Shown here one piece after another: positions 23,008 through 28,745 of a stretch of 38,433 nucleotides of DNA (positions are counted from its first letter, which is position 1; each line of letters begins with the position of its first letter). The notes beneath the pieces were generated by a model. It saw nothing but the letters and a program-made list of their open reading frames with translations. It did not search any database and was not told the origin of the DNA. Both the position numbers and the translations under genes were made by a program. The stretch is from Acetobacteraceae bacterium. Lineage in GTDB: Bacteria; Pseudomonadota; Alphaproteobacteria; Acetobacterales; Acetobacteraceae. The stretch is from NCBI GenBank assembly GCA_019750475.1, contig JAIEOO010000397.1, positions 1-38,433 on the forward strand. Direction: 5' to 3'.

Positions 23008-24291
23008 ATGGCGCGGACCTACGTCAAGCGTGCGCCGCCGCAGCGCCCCGCCGATCGCCGCGCGCTCGAGGACAAGGTGCGCGCCATCCTCGACGACATC
23101 GCGGCGAATGGCGACGACGCCGTGCGCCGCTACGCCCGCGAATTCGACCGCTGGGACAAGCCGGGCTTCCGCGTCAGCGAGGACGAGATCCGCGCCAACG
23201 CGCGCGCCCTGCCCGAGACCTTCAAGGAGGACTTCGCGTATTGCCACGCCAGGGTCACCGACTTCGCGAAGGCGCAGCGGGACTCCATGCGCGAGTTCGA
23301 GACGGAGATCGAACCGGGCATCGTGCTCGGACAGAAGCTGATCCCGGTGGCGAAGGCGGGCTGCTACATCCCGGGCGGGAAGTACCCGCTCATCTCCGCC
23401 GCCATCATGTCGGTCGCGACCGCCAAGGTCGCGGGCGTCGGGCACGTCATCGGCGCCGCCCCGCCGCGCGAGGGCGCGGGGATCTACCCGCAGACCCTCC
23501 ACGCGCTCCACGCCTCCGGCGCCGACGAAATCTACTGCATCGGCGGCGTCCAGGCCCTGGCCTCGATGGCCTATGGCCGCGTCGGCATGACCGCGCGGGA
23601 CATCATCACCGGCCCCGGCAACGCCTTCGTCGCGGAAGCCAAGCGCCAGCTCTTCGGCACGGTCGGCATCGACCTGCTCGCCGGGCCCACCGAGATCATG
23701 GTCATCGCCGACGAGAGCGCCGACCCCGCCCTGGTCGCGACCGACCTGCTCGGCCAGGCGGAGCACGGGCCGGACAGCCCGGCCTGGCTCGTCACCACGT
23801 CGCGCCGCTTCGGCGAGCAGGTGCTGGAGGAGGTGACGAAGCAGCTCCGCACCCTGCCCACCGCCGCCGTCGCCGGGAAGGCCTGGGAGGCGCTCGGCGA
23901 GATCATCGTCGTGGACAGCGACGAGGAGGCGGCGGAGGTCAGCGACGAATACGCGCCCGAGCATCTCGAGGTGCAGACGGCGCGCGACGACTGGTACCTC
24001 GCGCGGCTCCGCAACTACGGCAGCCTCTTCGTCGGCGAGCAGTCCACCGTGGCCTACGGCGACAAGGGCGTGGGCACGAACCACACCCTGCCGACGGGCC
24101 GCGCCGGCCGCTACACGGGCGGCCTCTGGGTCGGCAAGTTCATCAAGACCGTCACCTGGCAGCGCCTGACCGACGAGGCCTCTCGCCGCATCGCGCCGAT
24201 CATGGGCCGCATCTGCCACGAGGAAGGGATGCTGGCGCACGAGATCACGGCCGATGTCCGCTTCGCGCGCTACGCGCCCCGCAACGCCTGA
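23008..24291 (+). CDS. Histidinol-dehydrogenase-family enzyme, HpsN-like
   Basis: A 427-residue zinc- and NAD-dependent alcohol dehydrogenase of the HisD fold. Zinc ligands of the family are kept: Gln and His in LLGQAEHG, Asp in YGDKGVGTNHTLPT, and a C-terminal His in MLAHE. The Glu-His pair of the oxidation step is in YAPEHLEVQ. It departs from biosynthetic HisD in AGCYIPGGKYPLISAAIMSV and especially GRYTGGLWVGKFIKT. These resemble HpsN, the sulfopropanediol 3-dehydrogenase of Cupriavidus-type DHPS degradation. No his genes are nearby and an ABC importer follows in the same operon, so a catabolic role in oxidising an imported diol is more likely than histidine synthesis. The exact substrate is inferred. 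Confidence 0.82.
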   Translation: MARTYVKRAPPQRPADRRALEDKVRAILDDIAANGDDAVRRYAREFDRWDKPGFRVSEDEIRANARALPETFKEDFAYCHARVTDFAKAQRDSMREFETEIEPGIVLGQKLIPVAKAGCYIPGGKYPLISAAIMSVATAKVAGVGHVIGAAPPREGAGIYPQTLHALHASGADEIYCIGGVQALASMAYGRVGMTARDIITGPGNAFVAEAKRQLFGTVGIDLLAGPTEIMVIADESADPALVATDLLGQAEHGPDSPAWLVTTSRRFGEQVLEEVTKQLRTLPTAAVAGKAWEALGEIIVVDSDEEAAEVSDEYAPEHLEVQTARDDWYLARLRNYGSLFVGEQSTVAYGDKGVGTNHTLPTGRAGRYTGGLWVGKFIKTVTWQRLTDEASRRIAPIMGRICHEEGMLAHEITADVRFARYAPRNA

Positions 24292-24343
24292 GCGTCAACC
24301 CGCGGCGCCGTCCGAGGCCGCATCACAGGGAGGAGTAGAGCCG

Positions 24344-25717
24344 ATGACCGACACACCGCGTCTTTCCGCATCGCGCCGCGGCCTGCTGCGGGGTGCCGCC
24401 GCCGTGGCGCTCACGGGCGGCCTCGCCGCGCCGGCGATCGCGCAGAACGCTCCCCGCGTCGCGCGCGTCTGGGGCGAGCCCGGTCCCTATGGCGGCGTCT
24501 TCGTCAACGGCATGAACGAGTGGGCGCAGCGCAACAACGCCAACATCCGCTTCGAGGTGGAGCAGATCCCCTGGGACGGGGTGACGGTGAAGCTCGCCAC
24601 CGACCTCGCGGCGCGGCGCCCACCCGCGCTGATCAGCGTGGAGAGCCCCATCGCCTACCAGCTCGCGGCGGAGGGCCTTCTGGAGCCGGTGGATGACGTG
24701 AACCGCGCCATCCGCGCGCAGGAGCGCCTGGTGGACGGCTTCACGCTGGAGCAGTTCGGCGCCTGGCGCGGGGTGCAGTACGCGGTGCCGGTGCACCACC
24801 AGCCCTGCCTGCTCGTCGTCCAGCAGGACCTGGTCAACGAGTTCGGCCTGGGCGATCCCGCGAGCTGGACCTGGGACCAGTTCGCCGACGCCGCGCGCGT
24901 GATCGCCGAGCGCCGGCCGGGCATGGCGGGCTACACCATGGCGCTCGGCCGCAACCTCTGCGCCGACTACCACATCACGCAGTTCATCTGGCAGGCCGGC
25001 GGCATGACCTGGGACCCGCAGGCCGGGTTCCGCACCGTCTTCGACAGCCCGGCGACGGTCGAGGCCTTCGACTTCATCCGCCGCCTGCACCCGACCATGC
25101 CGCGCGCGGCGGTGGAGTTCAGCTTCCTCCAGGTCGTGGACCAGCACGTGGCGGCCCGCACCGGCATGTCGGCCTACTGGGGCCGCACCATGGGCCGCGC
25201 GGCGGAGGAGACGCCGCAGCTCTTCGCCAACATGGAATACTACCTGAACCCGGCCCATCCGCGGACCGGCGCGCGCTGGTCCTGGACCGACATCAATGGC
25301 TGGATCCTCCCGCGCCGCGACAACCCCTTCATCCGCGAGACGAAGGAAGCCGTCGCCTACGTGTCCAACTCGGTGGACTGGATGGTGCGCTACAGCCACA
25401 GCCTGATGCCGAATGTCGGCCCCGTCTTCAAGGACGTGGCGACCGCGCCGCAGATGCTCGCGCATCCCTTCTACCAGTCGAAGCGCCGCTCGCTCGACGT
25501 GATCTTCAGCCAGTCGGTGCCGCACACCTGCAACACCGGGCTGGAGCTGAAGCGCGGCGTCAACCCGCTCGCCGGCTTCGCCCATGGCCGCAGCGTCTGG
25601 GCCCAGGCGGTGCAGCGCATGCTGCTCAACAACGAGAGCCCGCGCCAGGCGGTCGAGTGGGGCCATCGCCAGTTCGAAGGCATCCGCCGCGACAACCAGC
25701 GCCTCCTGCAAGGCTGA
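24344..25717 (+). CDS. Extracellular solute-binding protein family 1 with Tat signal
   Basis: A 457-residue periplasmic binding protein for the second importer. The twin-arginine motif SRRGLLRG (10-17) is followed by a hydrophobic stretch and cleavage near PAIAQ. The mature region is family 1-like, with IPWDGVTVKLATDLAARRPP, YAVPVHHQPCLLVVQQDL, WTWDQFADAARVI and Trp-rich contacts in the second lobe. It differs clearly from the binding protein at 11529. GGGAGGAG (24328-24335) precedes the ATG. Its location behind an HpsN-like dehydrogenase suggests a polyol or hydroxysulfonate ligand. Confidence 0.87.
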   Translation: MTDTPRLSASRRGLLRGAAAVALTGGLAAPAIAQNAPRVARVWGEPGPYGGVFVNGMNEWAQRNNANIRFEVEQIPWDGVTVKLATDLAARRPPALISVESPIAYQLAAEGLLEPVDDVNRAIRAQERLVDGFTLEQFGAWRGVQYAVPVHHQPCLLVVQQDLVNEFGLGDPASWTWDQFADAARVIAERRPGMAGYTMALGRNLCADYHITQFIWQAGGMTWDPQAGFRTVFDSPATVEAFDFIRRLHPTMPRAAVEFSFLQVVDQHVAARTGMSAYWGRTMGRAAEETPQLFANMEYYLNPAHPRTGARWSWTDINGWILPRRDNPFIRETKEAVAYVSNSVDWMVRYSHSLMPNVGPVFKDVATAPQMLAHPFYQSKRRSLDVIFSQSVPHTCNTGLELKRGVNPLAGFAHGRSVWAQAVQRMLLNNESPRQAVEWGHRQFEGIRRDNQRLLQG

Positions 25718-27653: not shown

Positions 27654-27659
27654 CCCCGG

Positions 27660-28745
27660 ATGGATGTGCGGATCGAGGGCCTCTCGAAATCCTTCGGCTC
27701 CAACCAGGTGCTGAAGTCGCTCGACATGACCTTCCCCGAGCGGCGCTTCGTCACCCTCCTCGGCCCCTCGGGCTGCGGCAAGACGACGCTGCTGCGGATG
27801 ATCGCGGGGCTCGAGCGCGCGACGGCGGGGGCGATCTATTTCGGCGGCAACCGGGTGGACCACCTCTCCCCGGGCGACCGCAACATCGCCATGGTGTTCC
27901 AGTCCTACGCCCTCTACCCGACCATGGATGTGGCGCAGAACATCGGCTACGGCCTCAAGGTCCGCGGCATCCCCAAGGCGGACCGCGCGGAGAAGGTCGG
28001 CGTCGTGGCCCGCGTGCTCGAGATCGGGCAGCTCCTCGCGCGCAAGCCGCGGGCGCTCTCGGGCGGGCAGCGGCAGCGCGTGGCCCTGGGCCGCGCCATG
28101 GTGCGCAAGCCCGACATCTTCCTGATGGACGAGCCGCTGTCGAACCTCGACGCCAAGCTGCGCGCCACCATGCGCGGCGAGCTGAAGCGCTTCCACCTCG
28201 ATCTCGAGACCACCTCGATCTACGTCACGCATGACCAGCTCGAGGCCATGACCATGTCGGACCTCGTCGCCGTGATGGACCAGGGCGTGGTGCAGCAATT
28301 CGCCACACCGGAGGAGGTCTATGACCGCCCGGCCAACCTCTTCGTCGCCGGCTTCATCGGCAGCCCGCCGATGAACTTCGCCGAGGCCGAGCTGGGCGAG
28401 GCGGCCGGGCGGCCGGTGCTGCGCATCGCCGGCCGCGCCCTGCCCGTCCCGCCGCAGTTCGACCTGTCGGGCGCGCCGAGCCGGCTCACCCTCGGCATCC
28501 GCCCGCAGGATGTCCGCCTGGCGGCCCCCGAGGCGCCCGACGCCATCCCGGGCACGGTCTGGATGACGGAGCTGATCGGCTCCGAACGCCTCATCGAGGT
28601 CGAGATCGCGCCGCGGCTGCGGATCACGGCCGAAGTCCGCAGCGAGATCCGCGCCGAGCTGAACGCGCCGGCCGCCGTCGCCTTCGACATGGCGAAGCTG
28701 CACCTGTTCGACCCCGGCACGGGCCGGGCGCTGCCGCGCCGGTAG
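27660..28745 (+). CDS. ABC transporter ATPase, MalK/UgpC type
   Basis: A 361-residue ATPase energising the second importer. It contains GPSGCGKTT (Walker A), MVFQSYALYPTMDV (Q-loop), [15 protein letters not shown] (signature), [12 protein letters not shown] (Walker B) and THDQLEAMTMSD (switch His). A C-terminal TOBE-type domain follows, with LTLGIRPQDVRL. It is last in the operon, whereas the ATPase is first in the importer at 10456, so the two systems are not a simple duplication. It converges with maeB, leaving 6 nt. Confidence 0.93.
   Translation: MDVRIEGLSKSFGSNQVLKSLDMTFPERRFVTLLGPSGCGKTTLLRMIAGLERATAGAIYFGGNRVDHLSPGDRNIAMVFQSYALYPTMDVAQNIGYGLKVRGIPKADRAEKVGVVARVLEIGQLLARKPRALSGGQRQRVALGRAMVRKPDIFLMDEPLSNLDAKLRATMRGELKRFHLDLETTSIYVTHDQLEAMTMSDLVAVMDQGVVQQFATPEEVYDRPANLFVAGFIGSPPMNFAEAELGEAAGRPVLRIAGRALPVPPQFDLSGAPSRLTLGIRPQDVRLAAPEAPDAIPGTVWMTELIGSERLIEVEIAPRLRITAEVRSEIRAELNAPAAVAFDMAKLHLFDPGTGRALPRR

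Follow-up and report, generated by a model that had tools for sequence, protein, structure and literature searches.

A conserved gene unit of an HpsN-related dehydrogenase and a CUT1 importer in Acetobacteraceae, probably not a route for dihydroxypropanesulfonate

Introduction

Which compound is taken up and oxidised by a gene unit that joins a dehydrogenase of the histidinol dehydrogenase (HisD) family to a complete ATP-binding cassette (ABC) importer? The question is raised by a 38,433-nucleotide stretch of an Acetobacteraceae genome (contig JAIEOO010000397.1, assembly GCA_019750475.1), here called the window, in which five genes on the plus strand at 23008-28745 form such a unit. A first-pass annotation had placed the dehydrogenase with HpsN, the dehydrogenase of 2,3-dihydroxypropane-1-sulfonate (DHPS), and had suggested an ABC-dependent uptake and oxidation unit for DHPS or a related diol. 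By sequence comparison, the enzyme is a member of a wide type that lacks the His126 of HpsN, is mostly labelled 'hisD' and is neither HisD nor HpsN. Its gene stands in a conserved order with the importer genes, and DHPS is probably not the substrate.

Results and discussion

The dehydrogenase

Among solved structures, the dehydrogenase was nearest to HpsN, with about 50 % identity. A phmmer search placed HpsN 8v35 first (2.9e-132), the best HisD reached 2.1e-73. The AlphaFold2 model had a predicted local distance difference test score (pLDDT) of 86.5 and HpsN 9cp7 as its closest fold match; the W/G motif described below lies in the segments 362-371 and 375-378, where pLDDT was under 50. The identity to 28 HisD rows was 32-39 %, and Lys353 of the dehydrogenase stood against Tyr or Phe in these rows. 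Two HisD-family genes were detected in the genome at E values up to 0.001, the window's own and one on contig C257 that has the HisD signature and lies directly after hisG. The initial view that the enzyme is not the biosynthetic HisD was thus borne out: a separate hisD is present beside hisG, and HpsN ranks first among the solved structures.

The phylogeny agreed with this view. A tree of 111 rows was built by a quick maximum-likelihood run with SH-aLRT as the only support value; in it, the HisD rows were on one side of a branch with a support of 99 and the ten HpsN on one side of a branch with a support of 100. The window's enzyme did not cluster with HisD and was outside the HpsN clade, in a clade of 15 (support 99) together with Acetobacteraceae relatives and proteins of Hyphomicrobiaceae, Xanthobacteraceae, Rhizobiaceae and others. 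By this placement the dehydrogenase appears close to HpsN and perhaps its sister. The approximately unbiased (AU) test neither showed nor rejected that the His126-less type arose once (p 0.343).

HpsN is characterised by the motif G-R-Y-A/S-H, in which His126 binds the sulfonate, while HisD has predominantly Leu at position 126, according to PMC11382572. The two peptides that had been taken as marks of HpsN, PGGKYPLISAAIMSV and RYTGGLWVGKFIKT, are present letter for letter in the dehydrogenase, but both carry marks of the other type. PGGKYPLISAAIMSV aligns exactly with the HpsN motif and reads G-K-Y-P-L, with Leu at 126; RYTGGLWVGKFIKT carries W374 and G376, where HpsN has S and H. The zinc ligands Q248, H251, D352 and H411 are kept, as are the catalytic pair E318/H319 and Lys353. 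With Lys353 kept and His126 replaced by Leu, a carboxylate or another group would, by analogy to HpsN, be a likelier ligand than a sulfonate.

A comparison of 134 genes comprised 102 of the window type, 29 HpsN and three that were too short to class (L036, L045, L052). Classes were assigned by residues 126 and 353, which makes the per-class counts of residue 126 circular; residues 125, 374, 376 and 403 and the neighbouring genes stand outside this rule. Position 125 was P in 102 of 102 window-type genes and S or A in 29 of 29 HpsN. Trp374 occurred in 101 of the 102 and Gly376 in all of them, against Ser374 and His376 in 28 of 29 HpsN each. Near-copies are among the rows, e.g., L040, L042, L043 and L108, or L053-L057.

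The neighbour count took in 132 HisD-family genes whose loci are 6,000 bases or longer; 130 of them were classed (28 HpsN, 102 window type). The filter concerns the length of the locus and not 6 kb on both sides of the gene, which leaves some neighbourhoods truncated; the HpsN row of L138 (5,913 bases) was excluded. Probes were HpsO, HpsP and SuyB of Cupriavidus pinatubonensis (L109), searched within 6.5 kb where sequence was present, with identity thresholds of our own choice (HpsO 40 %, HpsP 38 %, SuyB 50 %). An hpsP was near 22 of 28 HpsN genes versus 0 of 102 window-type genes (Fisher test 9e-20), an hpsO near 21 of 28 versus 2 of 102 (3e-16), the rows of both tests not being independent, and a suyB near 5 of 28 versus 0 of 102. 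Neither hpsO nor hpsP was found beside the dehydrogenase in the window. A short-chain dehydrogenase of one family was near 53 of the 102 window-type genes, recalling the hpsN-hpsO pair; the window has none.

The type is widespread. In 398 evenly drawn Pseudomonadota genomes, 54 matches were obtained in 37 genomes outside the window's own, 35 of the window type and 19 HpsN; 19 of these genomes had the window type only, seven HpsN only and 11 both. These tallies, like all our genome searches, score the best candidates per genome and are lower bounds. No characterised member of the His126-less type was found in the open-licence literature, which does not prove that there is none.

Organisation and conservation of the unit

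All five reading frames of the proposed unit were found as claimed, a HisD-family gene followed by a twin-arginine (Tat)-type binding protein, two permeases and an ATPase (Table 1).

Table 1. Genes of the dehydrogenase-importer unit in the window
Gene product	Position	Strand	Model matches
HisD-family, HpsN-related dehydrogenase, 427 aa	23008..24291	+	Pfam PF00815 Histidinol_dh, 455 bits
Solute-binding protein, CUT1 kind, twin-arginine signal	24344..25717	+	PF01547 (SBP_bac_1) / PF13416 (SBP_bac_8)
CUT1 permease A, UgpA/MalF-like, GTG start	25721..26641	+	PF00528; UgpA model 131.9 bits, under cut-off
CUT1 permease B, UgpE/MalG-like	26766..27653	+	PF00528; UgpE model 111.2 bits, under cut-off
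UgpC/MalK-like ATPase, OB/TOBE domains	27660..28745	+	PF00005, PF08402, PF17912; UgpC model 421 bits, cut-off 432

The gaps between the genes are, in order, 52, 3, 124 and 6 bases, which makes a single transcript plausible. A GGAGG site precedes the start of the dehydrogenase. The promoter that had been placed before this gene is weak: a TTGACG / TAGGCT pair at about 22939-22968 was spotted by eye as a candidate, while a consensus scan of 22300-29000 returned no promoter-like site, a result of little weight in a GC-rich alphaproteobacterium. The gap between the permease genes is filled at 26644-26760 by two 54-nt direct repeats that are 96 % alike; this stretch had at least 12 matches in the genome including itself, with the best 40 of 115 candidates scored. 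In L034-L037, there is no such repeat-filled gap, and the two permease genes share a few bases.

The importer is of the CUT1 kind by its consecutive genes for a binding protein, two binding-protein-dependent permeases and a MalK-like ATPase, with none of the NCBIfam models over its cut-off on the importer genes. The signal of the binding protein holds S-R-R-G-L-L, and the twin arginine is present in seven of eight aligned rows; the eighth, L033, is given from a later start. Its predicted structure, with eight close rows as input, had a pLDDT of 38.7. Solved relatives in the PDB are distant and, by their titles, mostly sugar or polyol binders. Distant kin (22-24 %) adjoin genes of the enolase superfamily, lyases, aldolases or mannonate dehydratases.

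The claimed association of the dehydrogenase with a complete ABC importer held, and the arrangement is conserved in seven further genomes of the family. The full order of five genes was present in the window and in L032, L034, L035, L036, L037, L164 and G289, in the last split over two contigs (L045, L105); L033 ends inside the binding protein. In the draft sequence of Elioraea tepidiphila, an in-frame TAG interrupts the dehydrogenase gene (L036:10001-11278), either through a sequencing error or as a sign of decay. Outside the family, the binding protein adjoins the dehydrogenase in L038 (Xanthobacteraceae), with a malic enzyme between the two, in L049 (Rokubacteria), in the order binding protein, permeases, dehydrogenase, and in L145 (G368), which was found from the side of the binding protein. 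Because the dehydrogenase served as the query for most loci, counts of adjacency from its side carry a bias.

Relatives of the dehydrogenase adjoin other transporters as well, TTT in L039 and CUT2 plus CUT1 in L044 and L050. Among the enzymes beside these relatives were malic enzyme (L038, L039), a PdxA-family enzyme (L041 by Pfam; L042, L043 and L108 by similarity) and a hydroxyacyl-CoA-dehydrogenase-type gene (L149, L051). These three families oxidise hydroxy acids.

In the window itself, the operon is directly followed at 28752-31022 by a convergent gene for a MaeB-like malic enzyme, and distant kin of this gene are those adjoining the dehydrogenase in L038 and L039. As an operon partner it was rejected: in L032 and L034-L037, no malic enzyme was found in the 3.4 to 5.7 kb examined downstream of the operon, and the adjacency in the window may thus be chance. 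Upstream of the operon, at 18119-22285, an amidase gene is flanked by two orphan TctC-type binding proteins.

Proposed function and alternatives

We infer that the unit rather probably imports a small hydroxylated compound other than a sulfonate and oxidises it, with importer and enzyme sharing the substrate. The CUT1 importer with its predicted Tat-exported binding protein would bring in the compound, and the zinc- and NAD-dependent enzyme of the HisD/HpsN fold would turn its primary alcohol into a carboxylate in two NAD steps. By analogy to HpsN, the zinc would hold the substrate via a neighbouring hydroxyl group, with a second polar or anionic group as a further contact, and NAD would accept a hydride twice from the terminal carbon. 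The most likely product is a carboxylate derived from a diol or a hydroxy acid, and the hydroxy-acid enzymes beside the relatives fit a hydroxy acid as product. They are also the source of a narrower guess, quite unlikely to be right, namely an importer-coupled four-electron dehydrogenase that converts 3,4-dihydroxybutanoate or a related C4 hydroxy acid to malate; the wide His126-less type would then consist of such diol or hydroxy-acid dehydrogenases under the label 'hisD'. Malic enzyme would turn the malate into pyruvate and CO2, and the conversion of DHPS via sulfolactate to pyruvate and sulfite would be the step-for-step analogue of this route.

Several observations weigh against an imported non-sulfonate substrate shared by importer and enzyme. 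In the tree, the clade of 15 and HpsN join at a support of 70 as possible sisters, and the AU test did not formally reject a grouping of the window's enzyme alone with HpsN (p-AU 0.056). In genus g47, three genomes encode an enzyme of the HpsN clade in which residue 126 is Tyr (L231:7821-9122, L232:310-1623, L233:7648-8961); it shares 65-66 % identity with HpsN of C. pinatubonensis and keeps S374 and H376; in L231 it lies about 2 kb from suyAB, so His126 is not absolute. Lastly, the binding protein was found at 70 % identity or more in 15 of 299 family genomes, and in seven of these no dehydrogenase adjoins it. A shared substrate is therefore not certain, and a test that started from the importer did not uphold its strict pairing with the enzyme (8 of 15 genomes).

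Importer and dehydrogenase might accordingly be mere neighbours with separate substrates, which we consider rather unlikely. Besides the unpaired binding proteins, the association of relatives with TTT or with CUT2 plus CUT1 transporters favours separate roles. Two of the seven unpaired importers, both from genus g45, were inspected (L225:12927-15359, L226:2411-4800); their neighbours are hydroxyisobutyrate-dehydrogenase-type, PcaC-like and ComDE-like genes, with models under their cut-offs (tested on L225; ComDE also on L226). Against this reading stand the same gene order in eight family genomes and the adjacency in L038, L049 and L145, the last detected from the binding protein's side.

A unit for DHPS or a related sulfonate, as first suggested, would consist of an HpsN-sister enzyme that binds the sulfonate via Lys353 and other residues, a CUT1 importer and a supply of sulfolactate to SuyAB encoded elsewhere. 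We hold this to be improbable. In its favour, the window's genome has on contig C411 (L130:9187-10651) a SuyB with 73 % identity to that of C. pinatubonensis and an adjoining SuyA-like open reading frame, and SuyB was present in 13 of 25 genomes tested, among them six of eight of the window type. The kept Lys353, the possible sister relation to HpsN, the Tyr126 enzyme near suyAB, which shows that residue 126 can vary, and the ComDE-like genes beside the importer in genus g45 point in the same direction. However, SuyB was also present in four of four congeners that have neither HpsN nor a window-type gene, so suyAB is not tied to the window's gene. In the window's genome, none of 21 matches to Xsc exceeded the cut-off, and no match was obtained to a desulfhydrase-type CuyA query from L114, a search without positive control. 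Genes with the HpsN motif also occur in L114 and L125, where taurine-type ABC genes and a 'D-cysteine desulfhydrase' adjoin them. The absence of His126, the presence of W374/G376 and the lack of hpsP near any of the 102 genes of the type give DHPS no support as a substrate.

The genus Elioraea provided a further argument. Apart from their window-type genes, the genomes G097, G197 and G289 have an hpsNOP cluster (L136:320-6500, L137:6456-12896, L138:2013-5863) that encodes an HpsN with G-R-Y-A-H, HpsO (55-56 %), HpsP (46-50 %) and an SsuA-family binding protein (113.8 bits with TIGR01728, short of the cut-off of 163.5, tested on L136); ATPase and permease are present in L136 and L137. Each Elioraea genome has three HisD-family genes. 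Two were counted in the window's genome, G278, G248 and G262, and one, the HisD, in each of the four congeners; in G050, 82 % complete, the window type alone was found. Thus an ABC-dependent DHPS unit of the kind imagined at first seems, by its gene content, to exist, but as the SsuA-type cluster of Elioraea and not as the unit in the window. On the residues, the neighbours and this coexistence, the DHPS unit was set aside as the best reading.

A second histidinol dehydrogenase for histidine or histidinol metabolism, finally, is very improbable: the enzyme passes the hisD model TIGR00069 (NCBIfam, 446 bits, cut-off 243.8) and has the Leu126 reported for most HisD in PMC11382572, but the Elioraea HpsN passes the same model with 423 bits, so this model does not discriminate, and the hisD beside hisG, Lys353 in place of Tyr or Phe and the separate HisD branch led us to reject it.

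Comparison with known systems

Many 'histidinol dehydrogenase' labels cover proteins that are neither HisD nor HpsN. If the His126-less type were given a DHPS label, surveys would wrongly count its carriers as DHPS degraders, since similarity to HpsN by itself does not separate the types. Residues 125, 126, 374 and 376 together with the hpsO/hpsP neighbourhood separate them better. A substrate for one member, e.g., via the window's binding protein, would open the whole group.

The closest known enzyme is HpsN, the R-DHPS 3-dehydrogenase with R-sulfolactate as its product (C. pinatubonensis 8v35/9cp7; Ruegeria pomeroyi 8wwe). The window's enzyme shares with it the fold, the zinc ligands, E318/H319, D352/K353 and about half of the residues; it differs by P125, W374, G376 and C403, the missing His126 and the missing hpsO and hpsP neighbours, and by a CUT1 importer in place of the MFS, TRAP or SsuA-type systems of HpsN. 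With biosynthetic HisD it has the fold, the zinc and catalytic residues and, as in many HisD, Leu126 in common, unlike HisD in its low identity (32-39 %), Lys353 for Tyr/Phe, the separate tree group and the own hisD elsewhere in the genome. Like the unit, the Elioraea clusters of L136-L138 place a HisD-family enzyme beside an ABC importer; they come from the same bacterial family and from genomes with window-type genes of their own, and they differ in the G-R-Y-A-H motif, the adjoining HpsO and HpsP and the sulfonate-type binding protein (TIGR01728 below cut-off). With CUT1 importers of the Ugp/Mal kind, the window's importer shares the set of a binding protein, two permeases and one MalK-like ATPase, and it stands apart from them in that each of its NCBIfam scores stayed below the cut-off.

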